Made by a program: the position numbers and the translations under genes
Notes under the pieces: model-generated
What the model saw: the letters and a program-made list of their open reading frames with translations, nothing else
Told to the model about the DNA's origin: nothing
Database searches by the model: none
Part shown: piece by piece, positions 13,034-20,438 of the stretch
Layout: each line of letters opens with the position of its first letter
How positions within the stretch are numbered: the stretch's first letter is position 1
Virus record (IMG/VR): IMGVR_UViG_3300041964_000035
Location: 1-24,682 of that record
Length of the DNA stretch: 24,682 nucleotides
Strand: one strand, 5' to 3'
Source of the DNA: a virus

Positions 13034-13210
13034 ATGAGCAAGAAGACGGGCTATGTCCCGAAGACGTTTCGCGACGCCGGAACCGAAGAAGTGTTCGAAG
13101 GCGGCAAGGACCACAGCTTCGAAGCTGGCGCCTTCGCCAATTACGAGGCCGCGGGCCTGATCGGCAAGCCCGAGACCAAGACCAAGAGCGACGGCAAGGC
13201 CGACGCCTAA
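13034..13210 (+). CDS. Small acidic/lysine-rich structural-region protein, 58 aa
   Basis: ATG 13034 follows AGGAGAA at 13022-13028 with good spacing, and the frame runs to TAA 13208-13210. It reads MSKKTGYVPKTFRDAGTEEV, FEGGKDHSFEAGAFANYEAA and GLIGKPETK with a charged tail. The GTEEVFEGGKDHSFEAGAFANY pattern resembles the short proteins often found just before tail tube genes in alphaproteobacterial phages; no function is known to me. The clean ribosome site and codon pattern make it a real gene. Confidence 0.7.
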   Translation: MSKKTGYVPKTFRDAGTEEVFEGGKDHSFEAGAFANYEAAGLIGKPETKTKSDGKADA

Positions 13211-13278
13211 GCATTCCGCCCGGCCTGTCGGGCTGAATAACCGCCGGCCAGCCCGGCTCGCCACCAAGGAGAAGTACC

Positions 13279-13728
13279 ATGGGTTCAACGACTGCGGCGG
13301 GCTCGGCGCTCGCCATCTCGGCCGGCACGCCGGCCACCAATGACGCTGCGGGTTTCGCGGCGCTGACCTACACGGAGATCGGCCAGATCGATAAGATTGG
13401 CGCCGTCGGCGCGGTCTTCGCGAAGGTCGAGTTTCAGCCGCTCAAGGGCGCGAAGCAGAAGCACAAGGGCAGCCGCGACAACGGCTCGCTCAGCCCCACG
13501 CTCGCGCACGATGAGAGCGACGCTGGCCAGACGCTGCTGCGCACCGCCGCCGACGACGCCACCTCGAAGCTGTACGCCTTCATGGTGACGTATCCGACCG
13601 GCGCGAAGCGGTACTTCCAGGGCCGCGTGTTCGGCTATCCGGAGACCACGGACGGCGCCGACACGATCCTCACGGCCGCGCCGACGATCGAGATCAGCAC
13701 GGACATCGTGAAGGTCGCAGCCGCCTAG
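13279..13728 (+). CDS. Major tail tube protein
   Basis: The protein has 149 residues; ATG 13279 follows AAGGAGAA. It forms the stacked rings of the tail tube. It reads MGSTTAAGSALAISAGTPAT, ALTYTEIGQIDKIGAVGAVF, KHKGSRDNGSLSPTLAHDES and YFQGRVFGYPETTDGADTIL with APTIEISTDIVKV. The opening S.LAIS...P......GF..L.Y..IG.I...G.VG, the H.GS...GS....LA.D..DAGQ.LL, and the ending I.I.T.IV are typical of TP901-1/lambda V-like tube proteins of siphoviruses. There is no frameshift. A hairpin region and the chaperone gene follow. Confidence 0.85.
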   Translation: MGSTTAAGSALAISAGTPATNDAAGFAALTYTEIGQIDKIGAVGAVFAKVEFQPLKGAKQKHKGSRDNGSLSPTLAHDESDAGQTLLRTAADDATSKLYAFMVTYPTGAKRYFQGRVFGYPETTDGADTILTAAPTIEISTDIVKVAAA

Positions 13729-13740
13729 CCCACCCCCGAC

Positions 13741-13800
13741 ACCGGCGCCAAGCCGGTCAACTTGCATCGGCCCGCCCCGCGCTCTCTCGGGCGGGGCGGG
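13741..13800 (+). terminator. Two hairpins after the tail tube gene
   Basis: The first has a 6-bp stem (13741-13746 with 13752-13757). The second is a perfect 10-bp GC stem (13771-13780 with 13791-13800, 10-base loop). The second is strong but followed by TCGGTGC rather than a T tract, so it may attenuate transcription or protect the highly expressed upstream message. Confidence 0.45.
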
Positions 13801-13832
13801 TCGGTGCACCAATCCGAGAGAGGTTCAACCCC

Positions 13833-14264
13833 ATGTTCGACATCACCACCCAGGCGGTCGACGATACCGCAGCCATCCACCTCAAGAATGCCGCCGGCGA
13901 GCCGCTCTACGCTGACGGCGACGCGCGCGCGAAGCCCGTTCGGATCGTCGTCTATGGCCCCGGCAGCAAGGCTTTCGGAGCGGTGGAAACCCGCCAGTCG
14001 GCGCGGGCGCTAAAGCGCATGCAGGACAATGACGGCAAGATCACGGCCCCGACGGCCGAGGAGCGAGTCAAGGAGACGGCTGAAGACCTGGCTGCGCTCA
14101 CCGTCCGGTTCGAGAACTTCACCTATTCCCCCGCCGGCGATGCGCAGGGCGCCGAACTGTTCGAAGCCGTGTATCGCGACCAGAAGCTCGGGTTCATCGC
14201 CCGGCAGGTGACGAAGCACCTGGCAGACTGGGGAAACTTCAAACCCGGCTCGGCCGGGAACTGA
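13833..14264 (+). CDS. Tail assembly chaperone, G-type (zero-frame product)
   Basis: The protein has 143 residues with GAGAGAGG upstream of ATG 13833. It reads MFDITTQAVDDTAAIHLKNA, RIVVYGPGSKAFGAVETRQS, ENFTYSPAGDAQGAELFEAV and FIARQVTKHLADWGNF. The order (short N-terminal beta segment with 'G.P L', YGPGS..F, then F.....GD) and placement between tail tube and tape measure mark it as the gpG-like chaperone that binds the tape measure during tail assembly. The heptamer GGGAAAC near its end (14231-14237) is in the right phase for -1 frameshifting into the T frame, giving a G-T fusion. The zero frame ends at TGA 14262-14264. Confidence 0.8.
   Translation: MFDITTQAVDDTAAIHLKNAAGEPLYADGDARAKPVRIVVYGPGSKAFGAVETRQSARALKRMQDNDGKITAPTAEERVKETAEDLAALTVRFENFTYSPAGDAQGAELFEAVYRDQKLGFIARQVTKHLADWGNFKPGSAGN
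14231..14237 (+). promoter_or_regulatory. Candidate -1 programmed frameshift slippery site
   Basis: In the zero frame of the chaperone gene the codons are TGG GGA AAC, which presents G GGA AAC, a perfect X XXY YYZ heptamer, 25 bases before the stop (TGA 14262-14264). Slipping back one base enters the frame of the 14282-15121 ORF without meeting a stop. That downstream ORF has no good ribosome-binding site before its first ATG (14282). A single-base sequencing deletion in this G4A3 stretch would mimic the same arrangement. Confidence 0.65.
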
Positions 14265-14281
14265 CGCTCTTCGTCCGGTAC

Positions 14282-15121
14282 ATGGCGTGGCTCAACGCCA
14301 CGCCCAAGCCGGACGAACGCAGCAAGGCGGCGCGGCCGGAGTTCGCCCGGCCCAAAGCGAGCCGGATCGATCGTCTGAAGCGCGACCGTATCCCAGTGAT
14401 TATGCCGCCCAATCCGGCGCCGGCCATCATCAACCGGCTCATGGAAATCGGGTTGAACGAGGCCGCCGGCATGGGGCTCGCGCCATTGAGCTGGCGGGAG
14501 ATCGACGCCTGGTGCAATCGAACAGGCGTCAATCTGCCGCCTTGGGAAGCCCGGCTAATCCGTCGACTGTCCGTGGAGTATCTCGCGGAGAGCCGGCGCG
14601 CCGAAAGCGAGAATTGCCCCCCTCCCTGGCGCGCCGAAGTGACGGAGCGGGAGAAGGAGGTCGAGCTGGCGCGGCTGGAGATGTGCTGGGGTGACGGGGC
14701 TGATACGGACGAGCCAAGATCTTCGCCTGGGGAGGCTGGCTTGTTTGAAATGGGCAACGTCACCGTCGACGACCGGTTTGCGCGGTTCGGCGCCAAGAGC
14801 TTTGCGATCAACAAGATCAATTCCGTCGAGGTGCGCTCCTCCACCAAGCGCGGCAGCAAAGGCTATTTTCTCTGGTGGGCCATTGCGGGGCTGATCGCGT
14901 TGACGGTGTTTCGTAGTCCTGACCCGGGGGTGACAATCTTGCTCGCAGCTCTCCCCGCCTTCATTGGCTGGAGATCCTGGCTGCGAAGGCGGGACGTGAT
15001 CACCTACGCCCTCTTCCTCGTGACCTCATCGAGCGAAGCGCAGGCGTTCACCTCACGAGACGCTGAAGAAGTGCGGCAGCTGCGCAGTGCGATCGAAGAC
15101 GCAATGGCGCGGTCGAGTTAG
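14282..15121 (+). CDS. T-type tail chaperone extension, in frame with a DUF6232 domain
   Basis: The ORF from ATG 14282 extends upstream in frame to the slippery site at 14231-14237. The first ~150 residues (MAWLNATPKPDERSKAARPE, NPAPAIINRLMEIGLNEAAG, SWREIDAWCNRTGVNLPPWE, RRLSVEYLAESRRAESENCP) are the T-like part of a G-T chaperone; the W.EI.AW....G..L..WE....R.LS..Y......A block is typical of this gene in alphaproteobacterial phages. Then, without a stop, it continues into a DUF6232-like membrane domain described separately. A stop would appear (TGA 14692-14694) if the G4 run at 14688-14691 were G5, so the fusion may be real or a one-base error. Most likely product: the chaperone via frameshifting from 13833. 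Confidence 0.7.
   Translation: MAWLNATPKPDERSKAARPEFARPKASRIDRLKRDRIPVIMPPNPAPAIINRLMEIGLNEAAGMGLAPLSWREIDAWCNRTGVNLPPWEARLIRRLSVEYLAESRRAESENCPPPWRAEVTEREKEVELARLEMCWGDGADTDEPRSSPGEAGLFEMGNVTVDDRFARFGAKSFAINKINSVEVRSSTKRGSKGYFLWWAIAGLIALTVFRSPDPGVTILLAALPAFIGWRSWLRRRDVITYALFLVTSSSEAQAFTSRDAEEVRQLRSAIEDAMARSS
14741..15121 (+). CDS. DUF6232-like membrane protein (probable internal start; moron)
   Basis: A strong Shine-Dalgarno-like GGGGAGG at 14729-14735 lies 5 bases before TTG 14741 (ATG 14750 is the alternative), suggesting this domain is translated on its own. It reads LFEMGNVTVDDRFARFGAKS, FAINKINSVEVRSS, then two hydrophobic segments (GYFLWWAIAGLIALTVF; VTILLAALPAFIGW), then VITYALFLVTSSSEAQAFTS and RDAEEVRQLRSAIEDAM. 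The G.V.V...R...G...A...I.SV start, paired membrane helices and A..S.D...V..L...I..A. ending match DUF6232, a family of unknown function. It is not needed for virion assembly as far as known, so it is likely cargo. Its last 4 bases overlap the end of the reverse-strand nuclease gene. Confidence 0.65.
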   Translation: MFEMGNVTVDDRFARFGAKSFAINKINSVEVRSSTKRGSKGYFLWWAIAGLIALTVFRSPDPGVTILLAALPAFIGWRSWLRRRDVITYALFLVTSSSEAQAFTSRDAEEVRQLRSAIEDAMARSS

Positions 15122-15480
15122 CGGCCTCGGCAGAGCCGTCGATCTTGGTCGTAACGTGCGAGCCGGACAGCGTGTCCGGAGCGGACCATGGCGCAGCTGA
15201 GGTCTCGCCCACCAGCGGCGCAGAAAGCAGTGACCCTGTCCCAGCTGGTGCCCGTGCGCCGGCAGGTCAGGGTCTTCCCGAGCGCCAGAGCGCGGAGGGC
15301 CCGGCGAGCGGCGTAGGGATCGCCGGGTGTGCACCGGCGGCCGGTTCGGCAAGCGCCAGGCATCTCGGGGCTGTCGATGCCGTGCAGCCGGATGCGCTGG
15401 CCGTCGGCGCAGCGCAGCGTGTCGCCGTCGTGAACGGACGCCACGGAGCAGGTGAAGAGGGCGGCGGCGAGAAGTAACAT
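15118..15480 (-). CDS. Secreted thermonuclease-like (SNase family) protein
   Basis: The protein has 120 residues and is the only convincing reverse-strand gene. It reads MLLLAAALFTCSVASVHDGD, TLRCADGQRIRLHGIDSPEM, RALALGKTLTCRRTGTSWDR and LSCAMVRSGHAVR. The DGDT, the R-L-x-G-I-D-x-P-E block (metal-binding and catalytic Arg/Asp/Glu of staphylococcal nuclease), and the W-D-R followed by the D-L...MVR.G.A segment are all present. A hydrophobic N-terminus implies export; upstream codons encode basic residues (RSPRTELIL) but no clear alternative start. Six cysteines suggest disulfides. It points against the tail operon between the chaperone and tape measure genes, so it is an accessory gene with its own expression. 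I saw no convincing promoter for it. Confidence 0.85.
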   Translation of the reverse strand: MLLLAAALFTCSVASVHDGDTLRCADGQRIRLHGIDSPEMPGACRTGRRCTPGDPYAARRALRALALGKTLTCRRTGTSWDRVTAFCAAGGRDLSCAMVRSGHAVRLARYDQDRRLCRGR

Positions 15481-15544
15481 GAGGATCAGCTCGGTGCGGG
15501 GCTGCGGCTGAAATAGACCGATCCGACGGACTAAACATCACCCA

Positions 15545-15570
15545 GGCCGCCCACGGGCGCCTTTTCTTTT
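15545..15570 (+). terminator. Rho-independent-like terminator before the tape measure gene
   Basis: A GC hairpin (15545-15561, about six to seven pairs with one bulge) is followed directly by TTTTCTTTT (15562-15570). This is the best terminator-like structure in the window, yet it lies only 12 bases before the tape measure ATG, with the ribosome site GGAGG at 15571-15575 right behind it. It could act as an attenuator between the chaperone/moron unit and the tape measure. Confidence 0.6.
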
Positions 15571-15582
15571 GGAGGTGCGGGC

Positions 15583-18500
15583 ATGAACGATGGCAGTCCG
15601 ACTCTCGAGGTCGGCTTCGCGATCGAGACGGGCGGCTCGTTTGAGCAGCTCCTCCAACTGCAGCGGGTCATGGACTCGGCCGAGGCGAAGATCGTCGCCG
15701 ATGCCGCAAATATCGAGCGCGCGACGGGTGGGATGGTGAAGCTTGGCGGCGCGACCGCGCAGGTGACGGTGTTCGGCAATGCCGCCACTCGGGAGATGGC
15801 CAACGCTACTCGCGCCACCAACCAGGCCGAGCGCTCGGGCGAGGCCCTGGTTCGCCAGATGCAGCGGCAGGTCGACACCTTCGGCAAGACGGCGTCCGAG
15901 GTCCGAAACATGCGCGCCGAGATGCGGGCGCTGGCGGCCGAGCAGCGTGGCCTGACCGAGCTGGCGGGCCGCATCCGCTCGTTGAACGCCGAGATGAACC
16001 GGCTGGAGAGCGCAGGCGGGAGCGCCGCGGGGGCGGTGGACCGCAACCTCGGCGCGGTCCGCACGAGCGGACGGCTCGCCGGATCGGACATTTCGAACCT
16101 CGCCTTCCAGTTCCAGGACCTGGGCGTGCAGATGGCGGCTGCGGCGGGCAGCTCCGCCCCGCTGAAGATGGCGTTCATGGCGCTGTTGCAGCAGGGCTCA
16201 CAGATCCAGGGGATCATGAGCCAGGCCGGTGTGGGCATCGGCGAGGTGTTCCGACAGTTCGGCCTCATGACCGGCATTCTCCGAGAGGTCGGCACTGCGG
16301 AGAAAGCGATCGCAGGCGCCAAGGAGGCGACCGCGGCTGCGAATGGATCGGTGACGACCAGCAACATCGCGGTCGGCGCGACCGCCAAGAGCGCAGCGGT
16401 AGCGGAGCGGGAGCTGGCCGCCGCATTCGCAGCCGCAGCTGGCGGTGCTCAAGGCGCCGCCGCGGCGAACGCCCAAGTCGCCGCATCGAACGGTGCCGCC
16501 GCGGCAAGCGCCGGACGCCTAGCGGTGGTGATGACGCCGCTCGGGATGACCGCCGCTGTCGCCGCAGTCGCGCTGGGCGGCTTCGCTCTGGGCGTGAGGG
16601 CGCTCCAGGAGGAGGCGAACGAGGGCGCGCCGATGAAGGCCTATGCGGCCTCGCTCGGCCTGACGGCCAAGGAAATCCGCAACCTCGACGATGTTACCGT
16701 CACCTTCGGCGACACGACGAAGGCGGTGTTTCAGGTTGCTGGCGCGGCGATCTGGGGCTCAATCGGTCCAGCGGTGACCTCGACATGGAAAGTCATGCAG
16801 GAGTGGCTCGCCGCAATCGGCAGCGAGACCAAGCGCGCGGTCAATCATCTGATCGGGCTGTGGGTGGGCGGCTTCAACGCGGTGCGTGCGACCTGGTCGA
16901 TGCTGCCTGCCGTGATCGGCGATGCCTTCTTCGGCACCGTCAATGCCGGCGTGGACGCGATCAATGCGTTGGTTCGCACGTCCGTCAGCGGGCTCAATAT
17001 GCTCGTCGAGCAGGCAAATCGGATCCTGCCCAACGCCCTGCAACTGCCCACGGTCAAGGCCGGGCAGGTTGACCGAGTGAAAAACGAGCACGCCGGAGCG
17101 GCGGCCAAAGCGGGCAAGGCGTGGTCGAGCGCGATCAAGGAGGCGGTCAAGGTCGACTATCTCGGCGACTTCGCGGCTAAGGCGAGTTCCGCGATCGACG
17201 CCCAAGCTGAAAAGAACGCCCGCACCCGCCTCCGCAAGCAGATGGAGGAGAAGGGCTATCTCGACCCTGAAAAAGGGAAGGAGGACGAGGCGAAGGTGGA
17301 TCGCCACGCCGAGCGCCTGGCGCGCGAAGCCGACGCGGTCGAGGCGCAGATCCGGAACCTGTATGCGCTGGCGGCGGCATACAAGGTCTCCGGGGCCGAG
17401 GCTCTGATCGCCGAGGCGCGGTCAAGGCAGAGTCTGAGGCGATCAAGAAGCGGGCCGACATCGAGGAGCTGGTGAGCCGGCAGATCCGGCTCGCGATCGC
17501 GCAGCGAGTCTCGGACGCGGCCAAGGCAACCGCCGGCGTCCGCGAGCAGGCTGATGCGCAGGGGCGGGTCAACGCCATGGTAGTGGCTGGTCTCGTGCCG
17601 GCAGAGCGCGCGGGGGAGCTGATCAAGGATCAGATTGCGGACCTTCCGCTGCTCGCGGCGCTCCAGGCGGCCCAGCAGCGCGGGCTTGCGACCGAAGCGG
17701 CGCGGGCGACCAGCGCGCTCGCCGATCAACGTGCCGAGCGGGAGCGACTGCGCCGGGAGGAGGAAGGCGGCCGTTTCAACGCCGACATGCAGGCCGGCGA
17801 CAATCGCTTGGCAGAGCTGCGGGAGGAGCTGCGTCTGGTGGGCGCGACCGACGCCGTCCGCAGCCGTGGCCTGGCGTTGCTCAAGGCGACGCAGGAGGTA
17901 GCGACCAAGTACGAGGATCCGGCGCGCCGAGCCGAGTGGGTCGCCCAACAGATGCAGATTTTCGAGCTCACTCAGCGCACGGCAGCCGCGCAGCGCGATC
18001 TGAACGACGCGCTCAGCTTCACCGCCGACAAGTGGGACCTGATCGCCGGGAACGTCCGGAACGCCGCGCAGGGCATGGCGGACGCGTTCGGCGGCGTCGG
18101 CCGCGCGATCGGCGACATGGCGAGCATCTACGCCGACTATCGGCGCAGGAGGAGCGGGCCCGCGTCGTCCACGAGGCCAATCTGAGAGCGGCGACGACAG
18201 CGGCAGCGCGCGAGCGGGAGAACGTCAAGTTCGCGCTCGCCAGCTCCACGGCCCAGATCGGCGCTTTCGGCGACATGGCCGCGGCTGCGAAGGGCTTCTT
18301 CAAGGAGAAGAGCAAGGGCTACCAGGCCATCATGGCTGCGGAGAAGGTGTTCCGCGCCTTCGAGTTCGCCATGTCGGTGCGCGCCATGGTGCAGGACGTC
18401 GCCGAGACGATCTCCTCGGTCGCGAACAGCGGCGCGCGCGCGACCGCGGCCGGGGCGGAGGGCGTGGCGAACCAGTCCAAGCTGCCGTTCCCGTTCAACA

Positions 18501-20438
18501 TCGCCGCCATGGCGGCCACGGCCGCGGCGCTGGTCGCGGCCGGCATCGCCATCCTCGAGGCGGAGGAGGCGGCACCGCCAAGGCGGCCCGTCCAAACAGC
18601 GGGACGGGCACCGTCTTCGGCGATCCCGCGCGCAAAGCGAAAGCCATCAAGCGGTCGATCGATGCCGTCCGGGAGGTGGACACGCTGACGACACACCTAC
18701 GCCGCGCCAGATGGCGTCCTCGCTGCGCTCGATCGAGAACCAGGTCGGTGGCATTGCCGCCCTGGTCGTTCGCGCCGGCGACATCAGCGCGTCGGCCGGG
18801 TGAAGGAGGGCTTCAACAAGAACGTCATCGGCTCGGCCTTGAGCAAAATCCCGCTCATCGGTGGCCTGCTCGGCGGCCTGTTCGGGACCAAGACCACGGT
18901 GCTGGCGAGCGGCCTCTACGCCTGGCTCGCAGTCGCTCGGGCGACATCCTCGGCGGCGGCTTCGACGCGTCCTATTACAGCGACGTGCAGCGCAAGAAGA
19001 AGTTCTTGGGCATCACGCACCAGCAGCAAGACCTCGACACGGTTCGCCGGCGCCGACGGCGCGCTGGAGACGCAGTTCGCGCTGCTGCTCCGCTCGTTCA
19101 ACGACGCGATCCTCGCCGCGGCCGGCCCGCTCGGCGCCGCCACCGTCCGACATCCAGAACCGGCTGAACAGCTTCGTCGTCAACATCGGCAAGATCGATC
19201 TGAAGGGCCTGACCGGGCGAGCAGATCCAGGACAAGCTGAGCGCGGTCTTCGGCGCCGCCGCCGACAGCATGGCGAACGCAGCCTTCCCCGGCATCGCGC
19301 AGTTCCAGAAGGTCGGCGAAGGCGCTTTCGAGACGCTTGGTCCGGGTGGCGTCAACTGTGAGGCGGTGACCAACACGCTCGGCCTGCTCGGCCGGAGCGT
19401 CACCGACCTGGGCATGGCGGCGAAGCTCGGCCTCGCGGACCAGTTCGACAGCGTGTCCGGCCTTCACCGACGCGGTCGACGCCTACTTTCCAGGCTTTCT
19501 ACTCGAAGGAGGAGCAGGCCGCCGCCCGGAGCGCGCAGATGCTCGCGGTGTTCGGGAGCCTCGGGCTCGCCATGCCGGCGACACTGGCCTCGTTCCGCCA
19601 GCTCGTCGAAGCGCAGGACCTGACGAGCGCGGCCGGGCGGGAGACTACGCCACGCTCCTGAAGCTCGCCCCCTGCGTTCGCGGACCTCAAGGCGTCCATG
19701 GACGGCGCCAAGAGCGCCGCCGACATCGCCGCGAGCGGGCCGACCTGGAGCGGCAAGCTGCTCCAGCTCCAGGGCAACACGGCTGCGCTTCGGGCGCTCG
19801 ACCTGGCGAAGGTCGACGCCAGCAACCGCGCCCTCCAGCAGCGCATCTGGGCCATGCAGGACGGCCAGGAAGCCGCCAAGGCCGCAGACGAGCTGCGCAA
19901 GGCGTGGACCAGCGTGGGCGACACGATCATGGACGAGGTGAGGCGCATCCGGGGCCTGAACGGCATCGGCGGCGAGGGCGGCTTCGCGACCCTGATGGGC
20001 CGGTTCAACGCCGCGACGGCCGCGGCGCGCGGCGGCGACATGGCCGCGGCCAAGAGCCTGCCCAGCTGTCGCAGGCGTTGCTCGCGCGGCGGCCGACGCG
20101 GCGACGAGCCGCCAGGAGCTGTCCCGCGTGCAGGCCCAGACCGCGGCCAGCCTGGAGGCGACCTTCGGCGTGATCGGCAGGCTCGGGGCCGCTGCGACGG
20201 CCACGAGCAGCGCGGCGCTGGTTTGCGCCGCGCCGAGCCGGCGCCGGCCAGCAATGACAACGCGGCGACCTGGCCGCCGAGCTGCGCGGGTTGCGCGAAT
20301 GAAGTCGCCGAGCTGCGCAGCGAGAACGTTGCCGGCCATGCCGCCAATGCGACGCGAACAACAAGCCGCACGATCCTCGCAGCTCGTGTGACCGGGCCGA
20401 GCGGCGGCGATGCGATTGCAACGGTGGCGGCGGCATGA
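15583..20438 (+). CDS. Tail tape measure protein (frameshifted after 17.4 kb)
   Basis: The protein has about 1,620 residues, GGAGG 7 bases before ATG 15583. It sets tail length and helps DNA ejection. The clean first 612 codons show MNDGSPTLEVGFAIETGGSF, long helices (MRALAAEQRGLTELAGRIRS), FQFQDLGVQMAAAAGSSAPL with LLQQGSQIQGIM, an Ala-rich stretch (residues ~245-315), a hydrophobic segment MTPLGMTAAVAAVALGGFAL (~316-335) and AVNHLIGLWVGGFNAVRATW. At 17420-17421 GG should be GGG to continue into KAESEAIKKRADIEELVSRQ. Similar breaks occur near 18143, 18565, 18700 and at many points to 20330. The C-terminal half includes SKIPLIGGLLGGLFGTKTTV, LGRSVTDLGMAAKLGLADQF and TWSGKLLQLQGNTAALRALD. Its stop overlaps the next ATG (20435). 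Confidence 0.9.

Follow-up and report, generated by a model that had tools for sequence, protein, structure and literature searches.

A predicted G/GT programmed -1 frameshift site with a distal covarying hairpin in the tail module of a tailed phage or prophage of Sphingomonadaceae

Programmed -1 frameshifting between the tail chaperone genes G and T is classical, as in phage lambda (gpG/gpGT, heptamer G_GGA_AAG), and the heptamer GGGAAAC has already been reported at G-T junctions. A -1 frameshift at GGGAAAC was predicted for the pre-tape-measure chaperones of the Caulobacter phage Colossus (PMC3556154) and for gp18/gp19 of the Burkholderia phage KL1 (PMC3483164). The haloviruses HCTV-1, -2 and -5 have g-t frameshift sites too, that of HCTV-1 being G_GGA_AAC, and the same work is the basis for the lambda-like roles in tail assembly used below for G and T (PMC5009743). 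These haloviruses differ from the case described here in that their hosts are archaeal.

We have analyzed a stretch of 24,682 nucleotides of viral DNA (IMG/VR record IMGVR_UViG_3300041964_000035), called the window throughout, in which an earlier note had proposed a new slippery site at a G-T junction. The site is real, but GGGAAAC at G-T junctions was already in print in the three papers cited above. The features of the junction and of the genes that frame it are the following:

13279..13728, + strand: major tail protein gene (phrog_158, E 3.4e-19)
13833..14264, + strand: G-like tail assembly chaperone gene of 143 codons, zero-frame product gpG (from the ORF, homologues and position)
14231..14237, + strand: slippery heptamer G_GGA_AAC, in exact zero-frame X_XXY_YYZ phase, near the 3' end of G
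14237..14694, + strand: T-like coding region, predicted to be read after a -1 shift (from frame conservation, PF23812 and the fusion sequence)
14262..14264, + strand: stop codon TGA of G
14282..14284, + strand: first ATG in the T frame, without ribosome site; the inner stem described below begins with its G
15583..17475, + strand: tape measure protein gene, first part (phrog_3336, E 5.5e-14)

The gene order (major tail protein, G, T, tape measure) is the one found in lambda, with which the window also shares a heptamer near the 3' end of G, a T gene in the -1 frame and the GGGAAA core. It differs in the A-site codon, AAG in lambda and AAC here, and no protein homology was detected between lambda and the window proteins. 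The KL1 products (142 and 264 aa) are similar in size to those of the window, although the KL1 heptamer lies immediately upstream of the stop, whereas here 24 nt separate the last heptamer base from the TGA of G. Neither KL1 nor Colossus appeared among the matches of the T protein to phage records. The T product matches the Pfam family PF23812 (Phage_TAC_18; cut-off 27 bits) at 31.2 bits, the scores for T being 31.1-36.9 bits, and the PDB search with T gave nothing meaningful. For G there was no convincing chaperone family match above the cut-off in Pfam, PHROG or NCBIfam, nor any tblastn match in phage records, and it is assigned as a chaperone by its position and its linkage to T.

The codons of G around the heptamer read ...GAC TGG GGA AAC TTC AAA CCC..., and GGGAAAC occurs a single time on the + strand of the window, at the junction itself. 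From a point 178 nt ahead of the G stop, the -1 frame stays open across the junction and into the T-like ORF. The first ATG in this frame is found 17 nt past the G stop codon and lacks a Shine-Dalgarno-like match of at least 4 bases, both in the window and in all 43 representatives of its relatives (0/43). An in-phase heptamer at 14231-14237, a -1 frame open into T and an ATG devoid of a good ribosome site had all been claimed before from the letters of the window, and codons and coordinates bear these claims out. Most ribosomes would end gpG at 14262-14264, while a minority, with GGA in the P site and AAC in the A site, would re-pair on GGG and AAA and continue with CTT CAA ACC... to make gpGT, predicted as residues 1-135 of G followed by LQTRLGRELTLFVRYMAWLNATPKP... 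By analogy with lambda, G would bind the tape measure protein and T would recruit the major tail protein. The sequence comparisons show that heptamer, phase, frame and fusion-encoded residues are conserved, with a conserved RNA hairpin further on; we infer that slippage takes place in cells, as well as its efficiency and the roles of both proteins.

Searches were carried out with G and with T, giving 208 related loci, of which 118 are distinct over 150 nt. The homologues of G are 55-78% identical and come from 80 viral and 15 genome loci. The related loci were sequenced independently, 15 of them coming from GTDB genomes, and the named hosts are Sphingomonas, Sphingobium and Sphingosinithalassobacter (Sphingomonadaceae). 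T lies in the -1 frame relative to G in all 118 distinct junctions, and an in-phase X XXY YYZ motif is present in 115 of them, mostly GGGAAAC and next GGGAAAG. At position -31 from the G stop, 76 of the 118 carry GGGAAAC and 24 GGGAAAG; the other junctions with X XXY YYZ have it at shifted positions or have GGGAAAT, AAATTTT or TTTTTTG. Where GGGAAA has been lost a substitute heptamer is usual, such as TTTTTTG in two loci (L006 and L130) and AAATTTT in another (L128). Only three of the 118 (L052, L145 and L198) have nothing but degenerate motifs (G_GTT_TTC, C_CGT_TTT and C_CGT_TTC), with the -1 frame retained. The T-based searches, which are independent of the heptamer-containing peptide, agree with the G-based result, and the peptide-pattern searches were back-translated degenerately and so cannot favour GGA or AAC.

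This alignment of the same junction in related phages, proposed as a check in the earlier note, also bears on its caveat that a one-base deletion at this spot would look identical; such a deletion in the G/A-rich run, by sequencing error or mutation, might have split a single gene. Other genes of the window do look broken by length differences, the end of T among them, and the caveat was correct in that respect, since a one-base length difference is found some 450 nt further on. However, the 118 distinct junctions, from other assemblies, share the frame relation, the heptamer-to-stop distance of the window is the commonest one among its relatives, and the synonymous codons at the heptamer are conserved. 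As the relatives have the same frame relation, the window has no indel at the G-T junction; the probability of a deletion there is close to nil, and the caveat can be set aside for the heptamer.

The end of T is a different matter, as can be seen from the features located downstream:

14680..14694, + strand: end of T with a one-base length difference from the relatives (relatives ...RMVLG-stop, window EMCWGDG...)
14750..15121, + strand: DUF6232 gene (PF19744, 62.4 bits), artificially joined to T in the window

In the relatives T ends about 431 nt past the G stop. In the window, because of the one-base length difference near 14680-14694, it runs on in frame into the DUF6232 gene, up to 857 nt. 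DUF6232 follows T also in three relatives (L025, L086 and L080), all with a T of the usual length, and intact copies of T are present in the relatives. T is damaged at its end in the window, by error or by mutation. Between T and the tape measure gene the window contains the DUF6232 gene and a minus-strand ORF (15118-15480); this ORF, inside the tail module, resembles by eye a thermonuclease-like protein (..HDGDTLRCADGQRIRLHGIDSPE..). The tape measure frame ends at 17475 and coding-like ORFs go on in other frames (15583-18700), suggesting further length differences in the window.

Constraint on the shift site is apparent at the level of synonymous codons. The glycine codon at the site is GGA in 83 of 84 sequences, when GGA makes up 6% of the glycine codons in these genes, and the asparagine is almost always AAC (same-codon identity of 98% vs 54% expected). 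Of the 25,410 remaining zero-phase positions in the G and T genes of the relatives, not one carries GGGAAAC or GGGAAAG. Besides, the heptamer marks the point where the coding signal of G gives way to that of T. Upstream of it, variability in the aligned set is highest at the third positions of G (1.24 bits), and from the heptamer on it is the third positions of T that vary most, overlap included (1.00 vs 0.69 and 0.64). Conservation of the T-frame block GKLQxRLxRELTLYVRQMAWLHATP begins at the heptamer, before any start codon that could be used. Ahead of the heptamer, the column profile shows no conserved stretch at a spacing that would suit a Shine-Dalgarno-like stimulator.

These patterns are hard to reconcile with T being a separate gene that starts at the ATG at 14282, its translation coupled to termination at the G stop, with a heptamer that is there by chance. 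An ATG is indeed present there in 63 of 83 aligned relatives and only 17 nt after the stop. However, about a quarter of the relatives are missing it, none of the 43 representatives has a Shine-Dalgarno match at the site, the T-frame protein is conserved upstream of it and back to the heptamer, its last base pairs within a conserved hairpin, and the codons GGA AAC would not be kept in a chance heptamer. We consider a separate start of T extremely improbable. Frame, heptamer, synonymous codons and fusion-encoded protein are all kept in independently sequenced relatives, and we conclude, with high confidence for a prediction from comparative data, that a programmed -1 frameshift at the junction, as had been proposed, is very probable. 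The site would be of the lambda G/GT type and would belong to a tailed phage, or a prophage, with a host in the Sphingomonadaceae.

A similar arrangement is found in more distant relatives. At the corresponding junction of the Salicola phage CGphi29 and the Acinetobacter phage Effie, T again occupies the -1 frame and AAATTTT lies in phase:

CGphi29 (HQ634153), L211 1315-1321: AAATTTT site
Effie (MW176033), L210 1324-1330: AAATTTT site

Both records annotate two separate hypothetical proteins at the G-T junction and overlook the predicted GT product.

Downstream of the heptamer we have found, in addition, a conserved RNA element that the earlier note does not mention, with the following parts:

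14270..14317, + strand: conserved two-part RNA element (outer and inner stems) at the start of T
14270-14279 / 14308-14317, + strand: outer stem (core 14273-14279 / 14308-14314)
14284-14291 / 14297-14304, + strand: inner stem GGCGTGGC-N5-GCCACGCC, loop TCAAC
14244..14258, + strand: candidate proximal hairpin CCCGGC-TCG-GCCGGG, 6 nt downstream of the heptamer, no more than suggestive

The element has up to 18 bp, its stems are separated by an asymmetric internal loop, and its energy in the window is -34.4 kcal/mol. With the first stop base of G taken as position 0, synonymous codons are conserved at +14 (CGG), +35 (GCC), +38 (ACG) and +47 (CCG), all of them within the two stems. Against a codon-preserving null, the inner stem had a mean z of -2.44, with p<=0.05 in 78% of the sequences (0-10% in control stretches), and the whole element a mean z of -2.56 over 43 sequence clusters (controls -1.0 to +0.1). 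The threonine at +38 is ACG in 78 of 78 sequences for a background usage of 26%, and by parsimony, on a tree built from the remainder of T, two base pairs (+25/+39 and +13/+50) have 7 inferred compensatory double changes each. Base pairing is kept in 97.5% of the inner-stem cells (79 sequences), with 12 both-side changes vs 2.0 in shuffles, and for the two-stem structure in 43 diverse sequences the figures were 22 vs 8.5, although these shuffle tests are inflated by relatedness and the structure was chosen after seeing the same sequences. The outer stem is less uniform, with 74% of the cells paired. The conserved peptide encoded there (MAWLHATPKP) and the GC-rich codon usage of the genome could by themselves leave such a hairpin as a by-product. 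The codon-preserving null largely refutes this, and the invariant ACG and the compensatory changes inferred on the tree also go against it, making a by-product very unlikely.

A covariance model of the element was run on 27 sources. In 23 of them the top match was the element itself, on the coding strand and at the junction, scoring 57-77 bits against at most 16.7 bits for any other match; the sources are mostly relatives of the training set, so that these figures speak for uniqueness and not for independent discovery. The model did not find the element in lambda, Effie, CGphi29 or locus L116, and the same T stretch of lambda differs in having no comparably significant structure (best z -1.4). 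Rfam gave no match in the window (4227 families, gathering score), and a distal covarying hairpin of this kind was found neither there nor in the literature searched, of which coverage was partial.

The inner arms make up a perfect inverted repeat of 8 bp, its halves 5 nt apart, to which a DNA-binding protein could attach as a dimer, and the palindrome might accordingly be an operator or some other signal at the DNA level. RNA fits better, as one position shows three Watson-Crick pair types (plus wobble), G-U wobbles are tolerated and the outer stem comes with an asymmetric internal loop; besides, the element lies inside T, beside the frameshift site. A DNA signal is thus an unlikely reading of the element, which we take as RNA structure. 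A role as terminator was rejected as well, with no terminator-like site in 13200-15700.

E. coli dnaX and the IS3 family also combine a slippery heptamer with downstream RNA structure. In these systems the structure begins about 5-10 nt past the slippery site. The outer stem of the present element begins at 32 nt and the inner stem at 46 nt, and the relatives show no conserved upstream Shine-Dalgarno stimulator, two differences from dnaX and IS3. At 46 nt the inner stem is too far for a textbook stimulator. The proximal hairpin at 14244-14258 is possible in many relatives and could bridge the gap between heptamer and element, but its codon-preserving mean z is only -0.6, not significant, which makes it a weak candidate for the main conserved stimulator. 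Since the ATG abuts the inner stem, it is plausible that the hairpin blocks the own start of T. Occlusion of the ATG as its only role was rejected, given that representatives without ATG retain a similar stability (mean -27.6 vs -29.7 kcal/mol). The strength of the hairpin does not differ between AAC and AAG heptamers (-29.4 vs -29.8).

Most likely the element at 14270-14317 acts on translation around the junction, tuning the G:GT ratio or preventing independent initiation of T. More tentatively, and with confidence a little short of evenly balanced, we propose that it is an undescribed cis-acting RNA element that sets this ratio or silences independent T initiation through a mechanism unlike that of the classical adjacent stimulator.

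Ordinary ORF calling would present G and T of these phages as two unrelated hypothetical proteins and miss the GT product. The many relatives amount to a natural experiment in the evolution of a slippery site and its surroundings, and the covarying hairpin offers a concrete target to ask if phage frameshift ratios are tuned by structures beyond the textbook distance.
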